Shown here: positions 1 to 19,216 of the stretch, piece after piece
How positions within the stretch are numbered: the stretch's first letter is position 1
Layout of the letters: each line of letters begins with the position of its first letter
IMG/VR virus record: IMGVR_UViG_3300031787_000566
Coordinates: 1 to 31,041 of that record
From: a virus
DNA: 31,041 nucleotides
Strand: one strand, 5' to 3'
The notes under the pieces: model-generated
What the model saw: the letters and a program-made list of their open reading frames with translations, nothing else
Told to the model about the DNA's origin: nothing
Database searches by the model: none
Position numbers and translations under genes: made by a program

Positions 1-3000
1 CCGAAGTGACCAAGGGTCTCGTGCGCAAGCACAAAGTTCAGGTGCTGTTCGTTGGCGATCCGGTCCGTGAAAATCACCACGTTGCCGTCACCGAACGAGT
101 AGCCCGCAGCCAGTGCGGTATCGAAGTTACCCTCAGGGCGGGCAGCCACAGCCTTGCGGTAGAGCGCCGGGTTCTTGGCCTTCATGTCCCCTTGGTTCTT
201 GAACACCGAGACCTTGGGCTTGGTCGCCAGCTTGGACACAAACCGAGTGACCGCCATGCGCAGTTTGCCTACAGCAGGATCAGCGCGGTCAGGCTGGTTG
301 AAGTCAGCCAAGGCGAAGCGACCCTCATCGTCCTTCTTGGCAGTCGGTGTGTTCATACCATCGGAGTCGGTTTCAAACTTGGCTTCGCCGTCCTCCGTGA
401 AGTAGTCCTTAAGCGGCGCACCGTTGACCAGTACATCGCGGTCTGCCTCGTTGACTTCTGCGTAGAGGTCTTCCAACGCGAAGGGCAGACTGGGGTATTC
501 CTCCTTCGACATACTTGTCTGAGAGAAGGTGAACGGGCGGTCCAGATTGAATACCTTGAGCTTGCTGCTCAAGATCGCAACCAGCTTCGACAGCGCGGTG
601 TCGTTGGCAATGGGTCTGCTCTGGTAGGTAGCCTGCTTCGTGACAGCAGGTTGCGGTTCGACCGTGAGTAGTTCCGCCACGGCGGCGTTATCGATCTTGT
701 CTAGGCCGGTAACCTTACCAGCAGCAGGTGCGACAGCATCAATCAGATCGTTATCGATGGCGTACTGGAACCACGGGTCCTGCGCAGACAGCTTTTCCTC
801 GTTTCGCATGTGCTTGCGGAACGCCTTGGCGAGAATAGGCTTATGCCACTTGGAAACGGTCTGGTCGAGGAACTGCCGTGCCTTGGTCTGGATCGCCTTG
901 CGACCCTCGACGGTGCCACTGGACAGGCGCTCGAAGAACGCAAGCTCCAAGATATCGTAGTAGGCATCCTGAACATCGACGCTCGGCGTCTTTGTCGTGG
1001 CCTCCTCAACGAACGTGATGGCATCGTCCAACCGGTTGGCATCGGGCATCTCACCACGCGCCACAGCGGGGGAAACCGGCGCAGCCTTCGGCTTGGCAAA
1101 CTTCTCTTCGCCCTTACCCTTCTTCAGAGTTTGAACAGCTTCTCCCGGTTCCGCCTGAACAGGTTCGGCTGCTTCTTTGGTGAGCTTCTTGCGCTTTCCG
1201 GCAGGCTTTCCGGCAGGCTTTGCAACTTGCTTGGCGGCAGGTCGCTTGAGAGCTTCTCCGCGAGGCGCGGGTTGTTTCGTTGGAGAAACCGTAGCTGCTT
1301 CTGGCTTTTTAGCGGCACGGAGTTTGCCCCCCTTAGGTGGAGTGGGAGTAGGAACATCAGTGATAGCACCGGTAACCACAGTACGTACAGGATTACCAAA
1401 ACGAGCCTCACCCTCGGCTTTTACAAGGTCCGTCCTGATCGCCTTGAGGTCGGCGCGAGAAAGCTCACCAGCCTGCGCCATGTTGAGCGCATCGATCCAC
1501 TGACTCTGGATTTCTGGCAGGAACCGCTCAAACGCCTTGGGTCGCCCCGGACCGGCAAGTCTGCGCCATGACTCTGCTGCTTCTTCGGCGGTGACTCCAT
1601 AGGTCGGCTCAGGGAGATAAGTCTCCGCTGCTTGGATAAACGGCTGCGACTCAGCGAGGCGTTGCTGAAGCGCGTTGAGACCCGGAACCGGCGGGACTGC
1701 ACTTTGTGCCTGTTGGAACTCGGCCTGCCGTTGAGCAGCTAGTTGTGCTTCCTCTTGTCGGCGCTGAAGCGCCCGGAGAACCGGGTTGTCCGCAAGTGTA
1801 CCCGGCGCTGCGGGAGCAGGTTGTGCGTACCGAAACGGAGCCAGACCTGACTCGAAAGGAAGCACATCTTGGATATCAGACGGCGGTCCGAAAGGCTGGT
1901 CCCGAATACGAGGGTCAGTGATGTTCGTTGGCCCAGTGCGCGTTGCACCGCCACGCAGCAATAGTTCGCCCTGCGTACCGGGCGCAGCAGGCACACCCTG
2001 CTCAAACGGGAGACCGATCTGTCCAGCGGGGGCACCATAGTTCCGCTCGCCGGGAGCCAGCGGGAGTTCAAGCTGTGGACCTTCGGGGCGCACAGCGAAT
2101 CCACCGAGTGGGAGTTCAAGCTGACCGGACGGAGGTAGTGGCGCTCCAAACGGGAGTTCCATTTGCTCGCCGCCGGGGACAGTGCCGAGATCAGCACCGG
2201 GGAACATCTCTGTCTGCGTCGGAACATTTGGAACCGTAGCAAACGGAACCTGAGGACCAAACCGCTCACCACCCCCGTCAAGCGGGAGTTCAAATTGCTC
2301 CGGCTGTGGCTCAGGGTTTCCGCTACCGAGCAGATCAGCGGGCTTCCTACTTCTGAGGTTGGCCCCTGCACCGATGGGTCCACCGATGGCAGCACCGGCA
2401 GCAAAGCTGTCAATCAGTCGCTGGATATTCTCGGGCTTACTCAGGTCTTGGTCAGAGAGACCAAGGAGCAGAGCTTCCTGCCCTAGTTCCGTGCCGCCTT
2501 CAGCCGCACCACCAATCGCGCCGCCCACAGCGCCACGGCGAAGAAGTTCAGCGCCGCGACGGCGAAGGCTAGTACCAGCAGCCATGGCACGAGGGGCAGC
2601 AACACCACCAAGCACACGGCCAGCGAGCAGAAACTCCGGAAGCGTCTCAAGAGCAGCATACGGAATAGACCCCATCAGAGCGGTCATCTTGGCATTCACA
2701 TCATCCGGGTTGGCCCCGCGATCACGGAGTTCGCCGTAGATATCAGAAGCACCGATGGCTACGTTGTTGGCGTATGATGCAGCAGTAGCACCAGCAATAC
2801 CAGCAGCACTACGCAGGACCTTGCGTTCGGCAGCATCAAGGACTTCACCAGCGATCTGCTTGCGCGCAGCCGCAAGAACTGCCTGCTTGAACGTAGACTT
2901 ACCAGCGAGACCAGCGATAACGCCACCAAGCGTGCCGAGACCGGGACCACCAGCGGCGGTGCCCGCAGCAGCACCGGCAGCAGCAACAGCGACAGACTCC

Positions 3001-3644
3001 AGCAGGTTCGGACCCTGCTCCGCAAGGTTGGCGACGAACCACTCGACGGCACCACGGCTGGAGTCGATCTCGCTGAAGCGCCGCTCATAAGGGGTAGTGC
3101 GCCGCAGGTCCTCGACCTGCTGCCTGACGATGTTCCCGCCAAGTTCCTCAGCGCCAGCAAGCTGGAGACCGCGACCAGCCAGAAGCTGCATCGAGTCGAT
3201 GCCACGACCAAAACTCTTAGCCGCCAAAGTGCCGAGGCTAGGGTTCTTGATCCCCGCAAGATATTTGGCGTAAGACTGCGGATCGACAGGAACCCAATCG
3301 CCACCCTGAGGTAGTGCTGCACCGGGCTGACCGAGCAGAGCTTCGCTCTCGATGGCGCTCTGCGCATCGTCTTGCGAGAACGTCCGACCCTGCACAAAGA
3401 ACTGCTTGGTCGAGGGGCTGAAGGCGATGGACGGCCCAGTCTGAGGTGCGACCTGCGGGGCCGCAATCGGCACACGCTGACGCACGGTCTCACCAATGGC
3501 TGCGATGTCGGCCAGAGACTGCTGAAGCGCATCGAGACCAGTAGCCGCAGGAGGGGGCGGCGCACCAACCAAGGGGTTAAGCGAGGAGGCAGCGCTTCCC
3601 GTTGCAGGCATCAACGGGTTAGTAAGCAGACCGGCCTGAGCCAT
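1..3644 (-). CDS. Giant ejection / polyvalent-type internal virion protein (3' end cut by window edge)
   Basis: An uninterrupted reading frame of 1214 codons runs from ATG at 3644 (preceded by a good GGAGG site) to the window edge, so the C-terminus is missing. Residues 1-200 are mixed. Residues about 200-420 are Ala/Gly-rich with several hydrophobic or amphipathic stretches, as in phage ejection proteins that enter the cell envelope. Residues 440-600 are a Pro/Gly-rich linker with eight Q-x-x-L/M-type motifs (first at Q450, last at Q592). Residues about 780-860 are Lys/Ala/Pro-rich. The last readable residues contain H1208-E-T-L-G-H1213, a zincin-like metal-binding pattern also seen in large phage polyvalent proteins. 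It lies last in the gp13-gp14-gp15-gp16-like order of T7-type internal proteins, so a gp16-like ejected role is inferred. Length, position and composition are seen; enzymatic activity is not proven. Confidence 0.8.
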   Translation of the reverse strand, partial: MAQAGLLTNPLMPATGSAASSLNPLVGAPPPPAATGLDALQQSLADIAAIGETVRQRVPIAAPQVAPQTGPSIAFSPSTKQFFVQGRTFSQDDAQSAIESEALLGQPGAALPQGGDWVPVDPQSYAKYLAGIKNPSLGTLAAKSFGRGIDSMQLLAGRGLQLAGAEELGGNIVRQQVEDLRRTTPYERRFSEIDSSRGAVEWFVANLAEQGPNLLESVAVAAAGAAAGTAAGGPGLGTLGGVIAGLAGKSTFKQAVLAAARKQIAGEVLDAAERKVLRSAAGIAGATAASYANNVAIGASDIYGELRDRGANPDDVNAKMTALMGSIPYAALETLPEFLLAGRVLGGVAAPRAMAAGTSLRRRGAELLRRGAVGGAIGGAAEGGTELGQEALLLGLSDQDLSKPENIQRLIDSFAAGAAIGGPIGAGANLRSRKPADLLGSGNPEPQPEQFELPLDGGGERFGPQVPFATVPNVPTQTEMFPGADLGTVPGGEQMELPFGAPLPPSGQLELPLGGFAVRPEGPQLELPLAPGERNYGAPAGQIGLPFEQGVPAAPGTQGELLLRGGATRTGPTNITDPRIRDQPFGPPSDIQDVLPFESGLAPFRYAQPAPAAPGTLADNPVLRALQRRQEEAQLAAQRQAEFQQAQSAVPPVPGLNALQQRLAESQPFIQAAETYLPEPTYGVTAEEAAESWRRLAGPGRPKAFERFLPEIQSQWIDALNMAQAGELSRADLKAIRTDLVKAEGEARFGNPVRTVVTGAITDVPTPTPPKGGKLRAAKKPEAATVSPTKQPAPRGEALKRPAAKQVAKPAGKPAGKRKKLTKEAAEPVQAEPGEAVQTLKKGKGEEKFAKPKAAPVSPAVARGEMPDANRLDDAITFVEEATTKTPSVDVQDAYYDILELAFFERLSSGTVEGRKAIQTKARQFLDQTVSKWHKPILAKAFRKHMRNEEKLSAQDPWFQYAIDNDLIDAVAPAAGKVTGLDKIDNAAVAELLTVEPQPAVTKQATYQSRPIANDTALSKLVAILSSKLKVFNLDRPFTFSQTSMSKEEYPSLPFALEDLYAEVNEADRDVLVNGAPLKDYFTEDGEAKFETDSDGMNTPTAKKDDEGRFALADFNQPDRADPAVGKLRMAVTRFVSKLATKPKVSVFKNQGDMKAKNPALYRKAVAARPEGNFDTALAAGYSFGDGNVVIFTDRIANEQHLNFVLAHETLGHF
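1871..2297 (-). repeat. Array of eight QxxLPL/F-like peptide motifs inside the giant ejection protein
   Basis: Within a Pro/Gly-rich linker the protein reads QFELPL (Q450), QTEMF (Q477), QMELPF (Q494), QLELPL (Q508), QLELPL (Q524), QIGLPF (Q542), QGELLL (Q558) and QDVLPF (Q592). The central copies are spaced 14-18 residues apart. At DNA level several copies share the plus-strand word gggagttcaagctg. The pattern resembles bacterial sliding-clamp binding peptides, but could also be a docking array for another virion protein. Confidence 0.75.
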
Positions 3645-3649
3645 TGTAT

Positions 3650-5737
3650 TTAACCTCCGACACCGACACCCACTGAGCGTGCCGCAAGACCAGCAATGGG
3701 ACTAGCAGACGGCGCAGTCATTTGATCAGGAGAACCTTCAATCGGATCACCGCCGGGGTCAAGCATGACTGTCTGTCCCTGAACCTGAAGAATAGACCGA
3801 CCACTACCATCGGGCAACATCGTAATTTTCCCGTTCGGGTCCATTTGCTTGATCAGTTCGACAGCGCGAGCATTTTCACCCTTGATCAGTTCGTTCTGCG
3901 CTTCGCGGGCAGTCTGAAGCACCGCCTTGGCCGCATCCTCAGAGATACGAAGCTGGCTCTTGAACTGCTCGACCGCCATTGAGGATGAGGACTCAGTCCG
4001 CATCTTGCGGTACTCAGCGTCAAATGCCGAGCGAGCGCTGTCGATGATTGTGTTGGCGGGTACGCCGCGCTGTGTGACCCGACCATTGACCACGACATTG
4101 TATGAACCATCGGTCTGTGGCTGAAGCTGCACCGGGACACCAGCGTACTGGGACCACACAGCAGCGAGGCGGCGCGGATCATTAGCCATGGCGATCTCTT
4201 GGATACCCTGCATCCCCTGAAGGAACAGCAGGCTATTATCCAAGTCCAACATCTTCAAGCGTGTCTGAGTGAACTGATCGCCCATCCCAGCGTTGCGGTA
4301 CATCTGCGCCATACGCGCGAGTTCCGTCCGGTTCTGGAGGGCGACCCGCATATCTTGTGAGATCATGTTCTGGTCAGCAAGGTAGAAGTTCGACGGATCG
4401 ACACGGACCGGGGCAGCCACAGGCGTAGTGCCCGTATTCACACCGGCAGCCATCTGGGTACCGGCGGGTTGGCCACCACCGGATGTCTTACCAACAGCCC
4501 ACTCAGCGACCTGACCTACGGTCTTACCCTTTAGCACAGTCGGGTTTGCATCGACCTGCTTCTTGGAGATAACACTTTCAACCGGCGCGTTCCGGTCGGA
4601 CTGAAGTAGTTTGATCGCCGTCTTAGCACCAAGGAAATGCGCAAGGTAGGCAGTCGGAGCGTTGACCGGGATACCTGCTCCGGTAAGGGTATTGGCATTG
4701 TCCTGTGTAAGGCGCGCCATCAGGCGCTCCTGCAGTTCCGGATCGGTGCGGCGCGCCCAGATTTTGTCGTTCGACAAACCGGTGTTTGGGTTTTCCCTAC
4801 GATATGCACTAATCCACGTATCGCGGGTGAACTGGTACTTGCCATAAGCTGATGACGCACCGGCAAGGTTAGGTGTCTGATATGGATTTGCGACCGCACC
4901 AGTTTCAGCAGCACCGATCTGCGCAATGATACCGGCAAAGGGTCCAGTGGGGGTGGCAGTAGATGCAGTGGGTGCAGTGGGTGCAGTAGGTGCTGCAGTC
5001 GGAGCCGCGACAGCTTTCGCTACCCGCTGGTTGTTCTCAACTAGCGCGTTATAGAAGTTGACCGGGTTCTTCTGTGCGACAGCCAGCATCTCGGGGTTGC
5101 GCCGGAAGTAGTCTTTGGCATCGCTGGTTTGGTACCAACTCGACGCAGCATCGCTGAGTTCTAGCGCACGCTTCTGGTCCTGTGGGGCAGCCGCCTTGCG
5201 GAACGAACTGAACCATACATCGGTACCGGCAGAAAGACTACCGAGTACGCCAGCGAGCTTACGCTCATTCTTCGCACGGATAGCTGCTTGTTGGTTGTCA
5301 GATGCATTGGGGTCAATGCGCTCGAAGCCCGCGACACCAGCGTTAAGGCGGTCCGGGCGTTTCATATCCCACGGCTGGATAGTGACGCCTTCGATCTGCA
5401 AAAACCGAGGGGTCTTACCCGTAGTGGGTTTACGCACCGCCTGCGTGGGTGCCGGAGCTACGCCAGCGACAGCAGGGACAGCAGCCAGACCAGCAAGGGC
5501 AGTCTGCCCAGCAGGGGTAAACTCAGGTTCTACTACCCGCATAGGCGCGCCGAGCATCAAGCCCTGCGCGGGCAACTCCGGAGTAGGGGCCGTAAGCTGC
5601 TGGCGGCGGAACTCATCCTGTCGGTTCAGTTCTTCCAAGGCAAGTTGCTGCTGGCGATCTGCCCGCATCGAAGCCTGTTCGGCCCGAATGCCTTGTCCTA
5701 CCCGACCTGCGGTTGCGAGGAACGAACCGATGGACAT
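3650..5737 (-). CDS. Internal virion protein with lytic transglycosylase-like domain (695 aa)
   Basis: Residues 1-50 form a Gln/Arg-rich helical segment. Residues 240-264 are an Ala/Pro/Thr linker made of short APT repeats. Residues about 265-420 look like a lysozyme-superfamily/SLT domain: the likely catalytic Glu is E278 in IGAAETGAV, followed by a SSAYGKYQF motif (residues 295-303) that fits the substrate-binding Tyr/Gln region of transglycosylases. The C-terminal 250 residues are helical without a recognisable domain. The likely role is local cleavage of peptidoglycan during DNA ejection. In T7 this activity sits in gp16; here it is in the preceding gene, in the gp15 slot. ATG at 5737 follows a TAGGGG site. 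The TAA stop lies 5 nt before the start of the giant protein gene. Confidence 0.78.
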   Translation of the reverse strand: MSIGSFLATAGRVGQGIRAEQASMRADRQQQLALEELNRQDEFRRQQLTAPTPELPAQGLMLGAPMRVVEPEFTPAGQTALAGLAAVPAVAGVAPAPTQAVRKPTTGKTPRFLQIEGVTIQPWDMKRPDRLNAGVAGFERIDPNASDNQQAAIRAKNERKLAGVLGSLSAGTDVWFSSFRKAAAPQDQKRALELSDAASSWYQTSDAKDYFRRNPEMLAVAQKNPVNFYNALVENNQRVAKAVAAPTAAPTAPTAPTASTATPTGPFAGIIAQIGAAETGAVANPYQTPNLAGASSAYGKYQFTRDTWISAYRRENPNTGLSNDKIWARRTDPELQERLMARLTQDNANTLTGAGIPVNAPTAYLAHFLGAKTAIKLLQSDRNAPVESVISKKQVDANPTVLKGKTVGQVAEWAVGKTSGGGQPAGTQMAAGVNTGTTPVAAPVRVDPSNFYLADQNMISQDMRVALQNRTELARMAQMYRNAGMGDQFTQTRLKMLDLDNSLLFLQGMQGIQEIAMANDPRRLAAVWSQYAGVPVQLQPQTDGSYNVVVNGRVTQRGVPANTIIDSARSAFDAEYRKMRTESSSSMAVEQFKSQLRISEDAAKAVLQTAREAQNELIKGENARAVELIKQMDPNGKITMLPDGSGRSILQVQGQTVMLDPGGDPIEGSPDQMTAPSASPIAGLAARSVGVGVGG

Positions 5738-5751
5738 ACTATACCCCTACT

Positions 5752-6855
5752 TTATGCACCACGCGAGGCGGTCTGACCCTGACCAAGTGCCTGCCCAAAC
5801 AAAGCGCTAAGTCCAGCGATCTCATCCGCCCTAGATGCCGATGCTGCATTCCGGGCTGCAATAGCACCGGTGGGGTTGGTCATCGCGTACTCGGTTGGGA
5901 TTGCACTGATACCAGCCTGACGTGTCTGAGTGCGTGCGCCAACCCCTGTACCGTAACCCTGCTGATATGCAGTGCCAGCCGTGCGGGCGGTGCCGAGACG
6001 CATCCGGCGGCGTTCAGCAGCAAGGCGTTCACCCGTAAGACCACGGGTCTGCTCTGCAGTCTGAATACCGCCACGGATCATGGCAGCCTCGGCAGCTTGG
6101 CGCGCCATATACTCGGGGTCGTAATAAGCTGCGTCACCAATCAGTTTGTTGGCTTCGCTTAGGCGCTGCTGTGTCAGGGCCGCATTGACCTGCTGGGCGC
6201 GCATAAGTTCCGCTTCCTGCGCCTTGGCCATTGCGCCGCCGGGGTTCCCGACAAGGCCAGCAGCAATGAGTGTCGGCGCAACCCCACCAAGGTTAAGTCC
6301 ACCGGCTCCAAGACCAACGGCGCTTGTCGCACCACCAGCGCCAGACGTAAGATTTTTGACCCCGCTCCCTAGTGCGCTGACAGGGTTGCTTACAAACTTG
6401 GATAGTGCGCCGCCCAGAGTTGTAGCCGCGCCGCCTGCGGGAGCCGCCAGAGATGCAGGTGTAGCCGCATTGAGGAAAGGTGACGTAGCCGCGCCTGCGG
6501 TAGCAGGATACCCAGATAGAGATGCAGGCGTCTGCGGGTTCAAGAACGGCGATACTTTCATAGCACCTGTAGAACTCGCGGAGCTTGCCGAGCTTGCAGA
6601 AACACCCCCCGGCGGCTTACCTCCAAACAACCCAGATTGACTACCGCCTGACAGACCTCCGGCAAGCGCACCAGCCTGCCACCCTACACCAGCCAGTTCA
6701 CCAGCGCCTGCACCGATACCTGCGGCCAGTACCGTCGTACCGAGGGCTGTACCTAGCCCAATCGAGGGTGCAATGGCAGCAGCCAGAGGTGGAGCAAAAA
6801 ACGAGATGGCAGCTACGGCTGCAACCTTGAGGATTGACTTGACAAGCTTACCCAT
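5752..6855 (-). CDS. Internal virion protein, gp14-like (367 aa)
   Basis: The protein begins MGKLVKSILKVAAV, with a hydrophobic Ala/Gly-rich N-terminal half (residues 1-80 and 120-220) and a charged helical C-terminal half (residues 220-340, rich in Ala, Arg, Gln and Glu). This resembles T7-type gp14 internal/ejection proteins, which insert into the outer membrane. The assignment rests on architecture and gene order, not on residue identity. I chose ATG at 6855 rather than the in-frame start 15 codons upstream because the latter lies deep in the preceding gene. The chosen ATG follows its stop by one base and has a GGGGAA site. An alternative is an unassigned virion structural protein. Confidence 0.6.
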   Translation of the reverse strand: MGKLVKSILKVAAVAAISFFAPPLAAAIAPSIGLGTALGTTVLAAGIGAGAGELAGVGWQAGALAGGLSGGSQSGLFGGKPPGGVSASSASSASSTGAMKVSPFLNPQTPASLSGYPATAGAATSPFLNAATPASLAAPAGGAATTLGGALSKFVSNPVSALGSGVKNLTSGAGGATSAVGLGAGGLNLGGVAPTLIAAGLVGNPGGAMAKAQEAELMRAQQVNAALTQQRLSEANKLIGDAAYYDPEYMARQAAEAAMIRGGIQTAEQTRGLTGERLAAERRRMRLGTARTAGTAYQQGYGTGVGARTQTRQAGISAIPTEYAMTNPTGAIAARNAASASRADEIAGLSALFGQALGQGQTASRGA

Positions 6856-6856
6856 T

Positions 6857-7294
6857 TCAATTCCCCAGAGACATTCTGATATGTGCGCAGGATTTATCAA
6901 AGCCGAATTTATTCATGTATAGCATAGCCCGCTCAGTAGGGACATAGCTATCGAGGTACTCGACACCGTTGACCTTCAACCAATCGAGGATAGGTGTCCA
7001 GAACATCTGCTTAAATTTGGTTAGCCGCCGCCCTGCCAGCGCAATGATGTCGGCGCACTTGTGTCCGTTCGCTTCTGAAAACTGAATACCTAGAATAGTA
7101 GCAAGTTCGCTACCTTCAAACCCAGCGAAGATCACAGCCTCATCAGTACAAACGGCATTGAAGACGTACTGCGAATCCATATCGGACGCAGTCATCACAT
7201 TGCCGAGCGCAGATTTCTCGACAAGCGGCGCGATCTGCGGCCACAACTCGATGGCCCTCTCCTGCGTCAGAAGCTCGATGGACAGTCCGCTCAC
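6857..7294 (-). CDS. GNAT-fold protein, T7 gp13-like position (145 aa)
   Basis: The length and the C-terminal segment (LKVNGVEYLDSYV, then AMLYMNKFGF) match GNAT-fold proteins, where this region forms the last strands and the Asn/Tyr-Gly-Phe end. T7 gp13, needed for virion assembly, is a small protein of this kind in the same position just before gp14. No clear acetyl-CoA-binding R/Q-x-x-G-x-G/A motif is visible, so it may have lost catalysis and act as an assembly factor. The start is GTG at 7294, overlapping the previous stop as GTGA with an AAGGAC site upstream, which indicates translational coupling. Confidence 0.6.
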   Translation of the reverse strand: MSGLSIELLTQERAIELWPQIAPLVEKSALGNVMTASDMDSQYVFNAVCTDEAVIFAGFEGSELATILGIQFSEANGHKCADIIALAGRRLTKFKQMFWTPILDWLKVNGVEYLDSYVPTERAMLYMNKFGFDKSCAHIRMSLGN

Positions 7295-8083: not shown

Positions 8084-8431
8084 TCAGCCTCGCAACTGGG
8101 TAATGAGTGTGTTCAGAGTTGCCCGGATCGATGCTACATCATTCGCCAAGGCTTGTACATTCTTGAGTAGTTCGATGTAGTCGTCCATTGCAGGGACGAT
8201 GGCACCTTCCAAATTGACAGCAGTGCCCTGCGCTGTGACCTGCCGCATGGACTGTTCAGGCGCTTGGATCACTGTGATCGCGGCTTTAGTGATTGCGCGG
8301 CTTGCGCCGTCCTTCTCGCCGCGCGCACCTACCAGAAGTTCGACGTTTTCCTTTATCGCGCCGAGCATCTGATATTGCCAACTAGACATTTCAGACTGAG
8401 GCGGATTGGGGATAGCTGTAAACCTAGCCAT
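8084..8431 (-). CDS. Small helical virion-module protein (115 aa)
   Basis: An unrecognised protein with a central helical region and a C-terminal coiled-coil-like segment (IELLKNVQALANDVASIRAT, ending TLITQLRG). It overlaps the stop of the nozzle-like gene as TAATG, so it is translationally coupled. Its place between nozzle and internal virion genes suggests a structural or assembly role. No enzymatic motif, signal peptide or membrane segment is visible. Confidence 0.6.
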   Translation of the reverse strand: MARFTAIPNPPQSEMSSWQYQMLGAIKENVELLVGARGEKDGASRAITKAAITVIQAPEQSMRQVTAQGTAVNLEGAIVPAMDDYIELLKNVQALANDVASIRATLNTLITQLRG

Positions 8432-10848
8432 TATGCCTCCTTCAGACTTAGCGGGGTCTCGCCAAGGTGGATGGCGCGAATGCGAATATCGCCTTCGACA
8501 CCTACTTCAAACGTATCTGACCGGTATCCGGTAGGAAGGCGGAAGACATTTGTGTCCCCAATCGCGGTAGTTAGCAGCAACTCCTTATCCACCCAAAGCT
8601 TGAATGTGATGTTGTCTGCCGAGGCCCAGATGGAGGCATCGTCCTGCCACTGCTGGCTAGCCTGATCCCATGTGGTGGTGGCCTGTCGGTAGTCAGCAAT
8701 AACCCGAGCCGCCCCTAGGTTGATCATATCAGAGGTCTTGATGACCTTAGATTTCCACTGCTGAACCAGTGAAGGCTGGTTTAGGTTATCCCACTCATAC
8801 ACATCGCCATTCGTACCGGTTATGCAGTATAGACGGCCCTCGACGGGGTCATACCATGATGCTGTGTAGGTGAAATCGAGGTCAACGAACTGACCTCCGA
8901 TGTTCCTATCGGGTTCAAAGGCAAACCCTCCGGTCGAATGAGATGCGAGATACGCATCACCATAGAACTCACCAACAATAGTGCTAGGGTCTAGCGCGGC
9001 TGCCCATGTGTCGTTGTTAAAGTTCGCCCGTGTGATGATGTTCGGACCGGCGGCGGGCGAAAAGACAGCCATACCGTCGTGCGTAGGGTAGACTACCCCA
9101 TAGTTCATCGAGACGATGCCCTTACGATTGAGGCATGGGTAGAGCGCATCAATGCGTTGGATACTCATACCCGAAGCCGGGTCACTACCAGACACGAGGT
9201 AGGGGTATCCCTTGGTCGCAACCAAGATCGCACCATTGATCGGAGCAAGCCCAACGATATCATACTCGAATGTGATCGCGTATGCGATAGGCCACGCATG
9301 TGGGAGCGCGGGTTCCGATAGGTATAGCTTGTTCCCTACAAAACCTGCGAGGATATTGTTCTGCGCTGCGATCAGACCCTGCAGGTCGTCAGGCGGTGCA
9401 TCATACTCGTCGCTGGTGAGGGTGTCTGATAGATTGAGCGGATCAAAATCATCGGTGAACGTGTAGCTACCATCACCCCAATAGCGCGCGGCAGTTGTCG
9501 GCGGGTCCTCCGAGACATCGTAGTAGAGTGTGCCTGCTACAACGGCTGTCGATGCTACATCCACACCTGCTTGGGCATACGTAAAGGTGTAGTCATCGAG
9601 GATATCGAGGACGATACCGCCTGTGATGTCGAACGAAGCGACAGTGCAACCGCTGATCTTGAACCTATCATCGATGCCAAGATTGTGCGGGAAGGCAAGC
9701 GTGACCCGAGATACGTTACTGGTGCGGCTGACCGTAGCCAGTGCTGTGGGAAACCACAGGGTCTTGAGCCGGAAGTATTCCGTGCCTGCCGAAGTAGCCA
9801 GTGTACGATATAGCCGAATGCCACGGACAAAGTTATTTCCCGCAGGCTTGGTGGTCGGCAGGTTACTGACCGTGATGGTGACGCCCTCTTTGACAAACAC
9901 GTCAGTGGTTGGATCAGATGCAATGGACTCCTCCTCCCACGGAGTGAACCATGTATAGACATATGAACGTGACTGTGTCGGACCGCCAAGGTCGATCTTC
10001 GCGCCAAAATACGCTGTGGTTGCGATCTGCGGTCCGGGGCTAAAGTACTCGATGGTTGTCGAGTTGATCACGGTAGCCTGCGTGCCAGTCACATTAAAGG
10101 ATTGAAGCGAGAGGCGCACAGTGCCGGATGCAGTAGGAGCAACTGGTACGCTAACAGTGAATGTGTTAGGTCCAGTGACTGCCGCCGTGTAGATACCATC
10201 AATGGCATCACCCGAGGTAAAATCCAGAGACACTTGCGGAGTACCAGTCAGCCCATGGTTGGCCACATTACAGGTAACCGTTGTGCCGGAGTACGAATAG
10301 GAGCCGCTTAGGTAGCTAAACCCTGTGACCGTAATGTACGCTCCCTCCTTCAGCTTATGCGGAGCCGAGGTCGTGAGGCGAGCCGTATTGTTATTGTCGC
10401 GGGAGTAGGTAGCCGAGGTAGCCGTCGTGAATGGAACGACCGTGATAGTCGGTTTAGTCGTAGGGATTGGTAGTCCGAGGTCGTAGGAAAGCGTCGGGTA
10501 TGGGCCAACGCCATCGAACGCCAGTGAGTAGTTGCTGACCTTAGGCACCCCATCGCCAGTGAAGTAGAACCGCTGGTCAGTGATGTCGGATGATGTGACA
10601 ACTGCAATGTCCACATCCGTTGTCCACGACAACCACTTATTAGCCCCGAGCGGGTCTTTCAGCGCATAGAGTGTTTTGATAGTCCCGGTGCGCCCGGTGT
10701 TGCCAACCACCACGGGGGTAGGATAGGGGATGAGATCACCGGAGTACAACTTTGTATTGCGCGCAATTTGACCGGAGGTCTCAGGCAAAAGTTCCGGAGA
10801 GACCTTAGGCGCAATACCGTAGAAGTTTGTGATCTTGACACCAGCCAT
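8431..10848 (-). CDS. Tail nozzle-like / large tail tubular protein (805 aa)
   Basis: The N-terminus (KITNFYGIAPKVSPELLP) and the C-terminal beta-rich region (LNRKGIVSMNYGVVYPTHDG) fit the large tail proteins of podoviruses, of the T7 gp12/P22 gp10 functional class, which form the nozzle closing the DNA channel. Residues about 145-260 and 380-450 contain three inserted modules starting with H-x-L and a glycine turn (PHKLKEGAY, NHGLTGTPQ, PHNLGIDDR), a recurring Ig-like module in phage structural proteins. The gene starts 14 nt after the o-spanin stop with a weak site (GGTAGCGG). Its separation from the adaptor genes by fibres and lysis genes is notable. Family assignment is by architecture, not alignment. 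Confidence 0.65.
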   Translation of the reverse strand: MAGVKITNFYGIAPKVSPELLPETSGQIARNTKLYSGDLIPYPTPVVVGNTGRTGTIKTLYALKDPLGANKWLSWTTDVDIAVVTSSDITDQRFYFTGDGVPKVSNYSLAFDGVGPYPTLSYDLGLPIPTTKPTITVVPFTTATSATYSRDNNNTARLTTSAPHKLKEGAYITVTGFSYLSGSYSYSGTTVTCNVANHGLTGTPQVSLDFTSGDAIDGIYTAAVTGPNTFTVSVPVAPTASGTVRLSLQSFNVTGTQATVINSTTIEYFSPGPQIATTAYFGAKIDLGGPTQSRSYVYTWFTPWEEESIASDPTTDVFVKEGVTITVSNLPTTKPAGNNFVRGIRLYRTLATSAGTEYFRLKTLWFPTALATVSRTSNVSRVTLAFPHNLGIDDRFKISGCTVASFDITGGIVLDILDDYTFTYAQAGVDVASTAVVAGTLYYDVSEDPPTTAARYWGDGSYTFTDDFDPLNLSDTLTSDEYDAPPDDLQGLIAAQNNILAGFVGNKLYLSEPALPHAWPIAYAITFEYDIVGLAPINGAILVATKGYPYLVSGSDPASGMSIQRIDALYPCLNRKGIVSMNYGVVYPTHDGMAVFSPAAGPNIITRANFNNDTWAAALDPSTIVGEFYGDAYLASHSTGGFAFEPDRNIGGQFVDLDFTYTASWYDPVEGRLYCITGTNGDVYEWDNLNQPSLVQQWKSKVIKTSDMINLGAARVIADYRQATTTWDQASQQWQDDASIWASADNITFKLWVDKELLLTTAIGDTNVFRLPTGYRSDTFEVGVEGDIRIRAIHLGETPLSLKEA

Positions 10849-18442: not shown

Positions 18443-19216
18443 TTAGGCTCCGAATGGTTGCATCTTGGCACGCATTACACCACGGACATTACCAAGATTG
18501 GCGCGGGCACGCCGCTCCGCGATCTGAAATGTGTACTGTTTAGCATGATATGCCGCAAGCTCTCGATCAGTCCAATGGCTGTTGGGTAGCACCAAGAGGT
18601 GTTGCAATGCGCCATGCATGATGACTTCTTCGAGATCATCAAACACATCCTCGTCCATTGCCGTCGCATTGCGTCTGGGCTTGAGGGCCAAGAACATACG
18701 CATGGTATAGGCTACATCTGCGTTCGGCAGCGGCAGGACAATATACTTATCTGGCGTTACCTGACAGATCGAGCGTGGTGTGCTAGCTTCTGCTAGTATA
18801 GATTCAGGCATGACAAAAGTTCCGTTGTCATTAAACAACGGATCGTTATATTCATCAGTATTAAAAACGTTTTCCGGAGATAGCCCCCATACTTCAGTAG
18901 GATCGACGCCAGAAAATAGATCGGCCCACGCTGGGTAGAGCCTTAGCGCATCATCAAGAGTCAGTTTGTCGAGCGGACTACCATTGACTAGCGCGGCAAA
19001 AACAGCATGTACATCTGCATTAGTTGGCTTGTTGTAGGTGTACTCATGGACTCCCGGTATCAGATTAAACAGAGGGGCCTGATATCGCCACGCCAAAGTA
19101 CGCTCGCAAGTCCGGATCGCTGCATCTCGGACATACTGAATGATTGTCTGCGTCGGGCATCCGGGGACACTGGGATTAACCTTAGGGACCAGCGAAGCAA
19201 AAGTACGGTCGGTCAT
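18443..19216 (-). CDS. Head-tail adaptor / tail tubular-like protein (257 aa)
   Basis: The N-terminal segment (PSVPGCPTQTIIQYVRDAAI) and the repeated helices with a central beta region fit podovirus adaptor (gp11-like) or neck proteins, which begin with a helical segment for portal docking. Residue 40 onwards contains ERTLAWRYQAPLFNLIPGVH, and the C-terminus is basic and helical. Its ATG overlaps the preceding adaptor-like gene's stop (TGATG). It is followed directly by the fibre gene, consistent with a ring linking portal, nozzle and fibres. The family is inferred from context and general pattern. Confidence 0.6.
   Translation of the reverse strand: MTDRTFASLVPKVNPSVPGCPTQTIIQYVRDAAIRTCERTLAWRYQAPLFNLIPGVHEYTYNKPTNADVHAVFAALVNGSPLDKLTLDDALRLYPAWADLFSGVDPTEVWGLSPENVFNTDEYNDPLFNDNGTFVMPESILAEASTPRSICQVTPDKYIVLPLPNADVAYTMRMFLALKPRRNATAMDEDVFDDLEEVIMHGALQHLLVLPNSHWTDRELAAYHAKQYTFQIAERRARANLGNVRGVMRAKMQPFGA

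Follow-up and report, generated by a model that had tools for sequence, protein, structure and literature searches.

Few phage proteins are as large as the polyvalent proteins, and how their enzymes reach their targets after entry into the cell is largely unknown. The locus described here raises a specific form of this question: why does a giant phage protein carry, between its folded parts, a series of short motifs that resemble ligands of the bacterial β-clamp (DnaN)?

A giant polyvalent-type protein in a phage structural region

The window (the whole 31,041-nucleotide stretch analysed, from the 31 kb virus record IMGVR_UViG_3300031787_000566) is a phage structural region with genes for terminase, portal, major head protein, adaptor and tail fibre, together with internal virion genes; DnaN is absent from its genes. 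The giant protein is encoded at 3..3644 on the minus strand, as are all features of the window described below for which coordinates are given with two dots. Its first 1,214 amino acids are present and the gene continues past the window end; relatives are 2,230–2,950 amino acids in length. In the window annotation the gene adjoins virion protein genes. Its neighbour at 3650..5737 encodes a 695-amino-acid protein, possibly a transglycosylase-like virion protein: the window copy has no Pfam match, and the positional counterpart in contig L097 has a weak SLT match (E = 0.064). An internal virion protein (phrog_511, E = 1.3e-111) is encoded at 8431..10848.

AlphaFold2, run with 44 sequences, predicts a mainly helical folded domain at the N terminus (residues 62–437, 2334..3461; pLDDT 80–98 in most blocks and 50–75 in a few), which is closed by the conserved anchor RLI.SFAAG. 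The Pro/Gly-rich linker that follows (residues 438–614, 1803..2333) is predicted to be disordered from both pLDDT and composition, in agreement with the original prediction: residues 438–583 and 588–614 have pLDDT below 50, and Pro and Gly make up 34%. Near the window end, HETLGH (residues 1208–1213, 6..23) is a HEXXXH metallopeptidase-like motif, and AHExxGH and a downstream Glu are invariant in 23 relatives. Overall, the model of this region has low confidence (pLDDT 51). The elements expected in its core are there (a helix, three strands and the HE helix), and its matches to known folds are weak zincin matches (Z of 5.6 or less). Relatives end in a PLxRFG domain (NF032893; 128–166 bits against a curated cut-off of 100), a part that the window lacks. 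One relative, L007 (10001–17983), also has an ART-PolyVal domain at residues 1154–1266, upstream of the metallopeptidase-like motif, which was unmatched in two others scanned alongside. A PDB fold search with the N-terminal domain returned nothing significant, and most BFVD matches were to phage proteins, either uncharacterised or large polyvalent ones.

Proteins of this length that join helical, metallopeptidase-like and PLxRFG domains, and ART-PolyVal in L007, have the features of polyvalent proteins. Judged from sequence, the giant protein belongs to the polyvalent proteins; it has a HEXXXH metallopeptidase-like domain, and its relatives carry PLxRFG at the C terminus. Its packaging and ejection, the latter assumed in the original prediction, are suggested by gene order and protein class, and it is probably injected into the bacterium together with the viral DNA.

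Eight clamp-binding-like motifs in the linker

Eight motifs beginning with Gln had been predicted in the linker, and all eight were confirmed: QFELPL (residue 450, 2280..2297), QTEMF (477, 2202..2216), QMELPF (494, 2148..2165), QLELPL twice (508, 2106..2123; 524, 2058..2075), QIGLPF (542, 2004..2021), QGELLL (558, 1956..1973) and QDVLPF (592, 1854..1871). They take the form Q-x-x-[L/M]-F or Q-x-x-[L/M]-x-[L/F] and lie within residues 450–597. The array spans 1854..2297; the end of the predicted span was right and its start was not, as a start at 1871 leaves one base of QDVLPF. Eight of the 12 Gln residues in residues 440–600 begin such a motif, and 20,000 composition-preserving shuffles of this segment gave a mean of 0.26 motifs and a maximum of 4. 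The predicted disorder also places the motifs where β-clamp ligand motifs are accessible, that is, in a tail, loop or disordered region.

Published clamp-ligand motifs include QL[S/D]LF (PMC3919608) and the consensus Q-phi-x-[L/M]-(x)-[F/L], in which the most important positions are the Gln, the fourth residue and the hydrophobic end (PMC11139829). Under the stricter published consensus, four of the eight window motifs are canonical (QMELPF, QLELPL twice and QIGLPF) and the other half are not; QFELPL, QDVLPF and QGELLL are weaker matches, the last being the weakest, and QTEMF is like the QADMF of Pol III α. We excluded a ninth match, QEALLL at residue 389, from the array as it sits within the folded domain. 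The remaining larger window genes (7,713 residues) contain just two strict motifs, a single QSGLF (5752–6900) and a single QAPLF (18443–19216), each in a different protein and consistent with background.

Conservation and residue requirements

Scans of IMG/VR identified 83 relatives in uncultured-phage contigs, with 0–7 strict motifs each within an equivalent predicted-disordered linker. In the nearest clade, four motifs align to the window. The first, Q/E-x-[ET]-LPL, is QGELPL or QGTLPL in relatives and EGELPL in two; QxEMF and Q[LM]ELPF are invariant across the clade, and QDVLP[FL] occurs throughout it. The four additional copies (residues 508, 524, 542 and 558) are found in the window only, between the third and fourth aligned motifs. 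The comparison that the original prediction had proposed, between motif positions and drifting linkers, gave the expected pattern, with 96% conservation at 12 core positions and 70% at 97 linker columns. Motif codons change synonymously while the encoded residues stay fixed. Distant relatives have different linkers and yet carry QLELF, QGELF, QLDLF, QLSLF, QLPLF and QLAMF at the equivalent place.

Some relatives share the architecture but lack strict motifs (L055, L060, L062, L069, L076, L084 and others). Searches with the window protein part found no match in cultured phages, a protein search of GTDB genomes found no prophage relative, and the array peptides gave chance-level matches only in cultured phages. 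Motif arrays were also absent from the scanned giants of Bcep22-type and F116-type phages, Roseobacter CRP-2, Rhizobium TM3_14A, phiM6 and Pseudoalteromonas phages. As strict motifs are missing in some relatives, in cultured relatives and in the Bcep22-type giants, the array is dispensable for the protein class.

Across 52 non-redundant linkers we counted 130 strict motifs, compared with 6.8 ± 2.6 in shuffled and 9 in reversed sequence. With the published definition (Q-phi-x-[L/M]-[F/L], or with an extra x), the whole family has 90 compared with 12.1 expected, and enrichment is strongest for the published high-affinity clamp forms QLxLF and QLxLxF (41 versus 0.5). Substituted motifs lost the excess when Gln was replaced by Glu (2 observed, 4.6 expected), Asn (0 versus 1.9) or Ala (8 versus 9.3), when Leu/Met was replaced by Val, Ile or Ala (10 versus 16.7) and when Phe was replaced by Tyr, Trp or Val (6 versus 15.6). 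Pro in place of Gln retained a mild excess (20 versus 8.3). The off-by-one spacing Qxxx[LM]F was raised (34 versus 6.3), probably owing to runs such as QQLPLF. A motif-free analysis of all 2,114 Gln residues recovered Leu at +3 (z = 14.8) and Phe at +4 (z = 9.8) and +5 (z = 9.5).

The predicted-disordered linker carries a conserved array with residue and spacing requirements that match those of DnaN ligands. By conservation and substitution statistics, the motifs rely on Gln1, Leu/Met4 and a terminal Phe/Leu. The reading of the motifs as clamp ligands is supported in part: homologues keep these residues, they include the textbook forms QLDLF, QLSLF, QLELF, QLPLF and QGELF, and the substituted controls show no excess beyond the mild one for Pro.

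Arrays found by unbiased pattern scans

We also searched for runs of three Q-x-[D/E]-L motifs in 2.9 million viral contigs, with separate patterns for CAGC and CAGG starts. The CAGC scan gave seven viral matches, four of which are giants of the kind in the window and three of which are spurious; all seven viral matches of the CAGG scan are in phage giants, some of them diverged, with the unit QGELFPGEDLGQAP. The second window motif, QTEMFPGADLGTVP, corresponds to this unit. QTEMF is followed by PGADLGTVP, and a sizeable minority of Q-x-[ED]-[LM]-F instances are followed by a DLGxAP-like tail. At 2175–2216 of the window and in the arrays of L120, L121, L123 and L125, a second conserved element, approximately P-G-x-D-L-G-x-A-P, follows many acidic motifs.

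The 24 pattern matches in bacterial genomes proved on reading to be tandem repeats, out-of-frame matches or short open reading frames, and were rejected. They include a 117-amino-acid open reading frame of a Planctomycetota MAG (L137, 111–251) with QLDLF every 7 residues and a Holosporaceae MAG (L140, 4900–5058) with QRDLF/QLSLF every 12 residues, both probably tandem repeats unrelated to clamps.

Replication genes, hosts and other candidate motifs

An A-family DNA polymerase (PolA) is encoded by all 21 relatives examined. No DnaN or DnaB helicase domain was detected in these 21 records, which may be fragments; with no clamp gene found, the clamp target would have to be that of the host. The nearest cultured relatives of the portal include phages of Rhizobium, Roseobacter, SAR116 (Puniceispirillum) and Pelagibacter, and the hosts of these cultured phages are mostly alphaproteobacteria. 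The proline form xLPLF is typical, as PLPLF, of alphaproteobacterial DnaE2 (PMC3919608). The QLPLF of relatives fits this form and is no proof as to host.

Other proteins of these phages contain similar motifs. A MoxR-like AAA ATPase (L098, 18418–19410, plus strand; orthologues L150–L170) ends in Q..[LM]F in all six of the first orthologues, and 18 of 19 further readable orthologues have the exact C-terminal end HQ[DNEST][VI]LF. The sole exception, L169, belongs to the same phage as L076, the giant protein of which has no strict array motif. The free C terminus of this ATPase is a possible second clamp motif. Four of six genomes have QN[GAST]LF in a DUF927 protein of about 950 amino acids (L102, 183–3047; L094, 8797–11655); given the conserved stretch around it, this is probably no clamp motif. 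QLELF in a PD-(D/E)XK nuclease beside PolA was rejected, being part of the conserved core of the enzyme.

A putative tether to host clamps and its alternatives

We consider it fairly likely that the linker tethers a phage polyvalent protein to host β-clamps in a multivalent manner. The array lies between the N-terminal helical domain and the enzyme part with its metallopeptidase-like and PLxRFG domains. Like known polyvalent proteins, the giant would be packaged and would enter the cell alongside the DNA. In the cytoplasm, its motifs may dock in the peptide pockets of host DnaN, several weak-to-moderate motifs together providing avidity. Such docking would concentrate the enzyme domains, along with phage DNA that is attached or close by, at sites of replication, and may additionally drive host polymerases and other ligands off the clamp.

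Blockade is the closest variant of this proposal: the array would saturate the peptide pockets and halt host replication, with no targeting of enzymes. We think this unlikely. Twort Gp168 is a precedent for clamp inhibition by a phage, albeit via the DNA channel (PMC11139829), and the phages encode their own PolA; however, the few injected copies could hardly saturate all clamps, unless they act only at forks, and the fusion to enzyme domains suggests delivery. Targeting or tethering is therefore somewhat more likely than pure blockade. That the array is a compositional accident can be entertained because the window linker is rich in Pro and Gly and the linkers of many relatives are rich in Gln, that is, a low-complexity Q/P/L-rich background; shuffles, reversed sequences and substituted motifs all fail to reproduce it and the conserved motif residues drift synonymously, so this explanation was rejected on statistical grounds and is very improbable.

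In the most serious structural rival, the metallopeptidase domain of the protein itself would recognise or cleave the motifs and so trim the protein before packaging or after entry. Auto-processing by such domains has been proposed for polyvalent proteins (PMC5512222), and an HExxH/HEXXXH domain is present in nearly all full-length members. However, arrays and peptidase types fail to track each other, which disfavours cleavage sites: L055, L060, L062 and L076 have AHETLGH-like peptidase motifs and zero strict array motifs, and QxELF arrays occur alongside other peptidase types (HELGH and HEAVH in L120/L125). L006, L008 and L011, whose metallopeptidase motif is of another kind and which have few canonical motifs, leave room for doubt. 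An array is unnecessary for a single cut, and one would not expect the specificity of cleavage to mirror the Q, L/M, F pentamer and hexamer rules of clamp ligands. On balance we regard cleavage as rather improbable, and we hold a similarly low opinion of the proposal that the motifs bind another phage protein (the portal, an internal virion protein or a scaffold) and thereby pack and align the giant within the capsid. The adjoining virion protein genes are compatible with such a partner, and repeated short motifs could suit a multimeric one; the agreement with clamp-ligand rules would then be a coincidence, and the array is missing in cultured relatives with similar virion genes.

The tether to host clamps remains our preferred reading. 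A broader version is a tentative proposal that we hold at somewhat less than even confidence: phages of this large uncultured group would inject a polyvalent protein able to seize several host clamps simultaneously, and its enzymes and the incoming genome would thereby be placed at host replication sites at the very start of infection, a form of replisome docking carried in the virion. If true, a clamp-docking array would partly explain how the enzymes of polyvalent proteins are targeted after entry. It would also mean that phages exploit the peptide pocket pursued by drug developers, and that the arrays are natural multivalent clamp ligands. As the motifs are short, the idea is directly accessible with peptides.

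Comparison with known systems

DarB-like giants of Bcep22-type podoviruses (BcepIL02 gp70, LASTA gp01 and POI1126 gp30) occupy a comparable place in the genome, after the internal virion genes. The C-terminal region of relatives matches phrog_11358, a family of giant proteins; end-to-end similarity to the DarB-like giants was not found, as matches are confined to these C-terminal regions. The Bcep22-type giants have no arrays, with 0–2 loose motif matches each, at or below chance.

Polyvalent proteins, including forms with a HEXXXH metallopeptidase, have been described by Iyer et al. in 2017 (PMC5512222). The phage polyvalent proteins are likewise very large and multi-domain, and the HEXXXH metallopeptidase-like motif, the PLxRFG domain (NF032893) of relatives and the single ART-PolyVal domain fit this class. 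The present giants differ in having an array of motifs embedded between the domains; the main text of that study never mentions clamp, DnaN or a linear motif. The original prediction knew of no described ejection protein with such an array, and our search of the open-access literature likewise turned up no clamp motifs in any phage virion or polyvalent protein. Phage Twort Gp168 inhibits the host clamp via its DNA channel (PMC11139829), whereas the array is a putative ligand of the peptide pocket.

Further parallels are the bacterial β-clamp ligands Hda, Pol III α, Pol IV and UmuC, together with transposition proteins such as TnsE, which share with the array the code Q-x-x-[L/M]-F or Q-x-x-[L/M]-x-[F/L] (PMC3919608, PMC11139829 and PMC5371812). 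The residue dependencies of the array motifs agree with measured data on clamp peptides (PMC11139829). The ligands reviewed in these papers have one or two motifs, whereas the phage giants, known here from sequence, carry as many as seven strict motifs one after another in a single protein.
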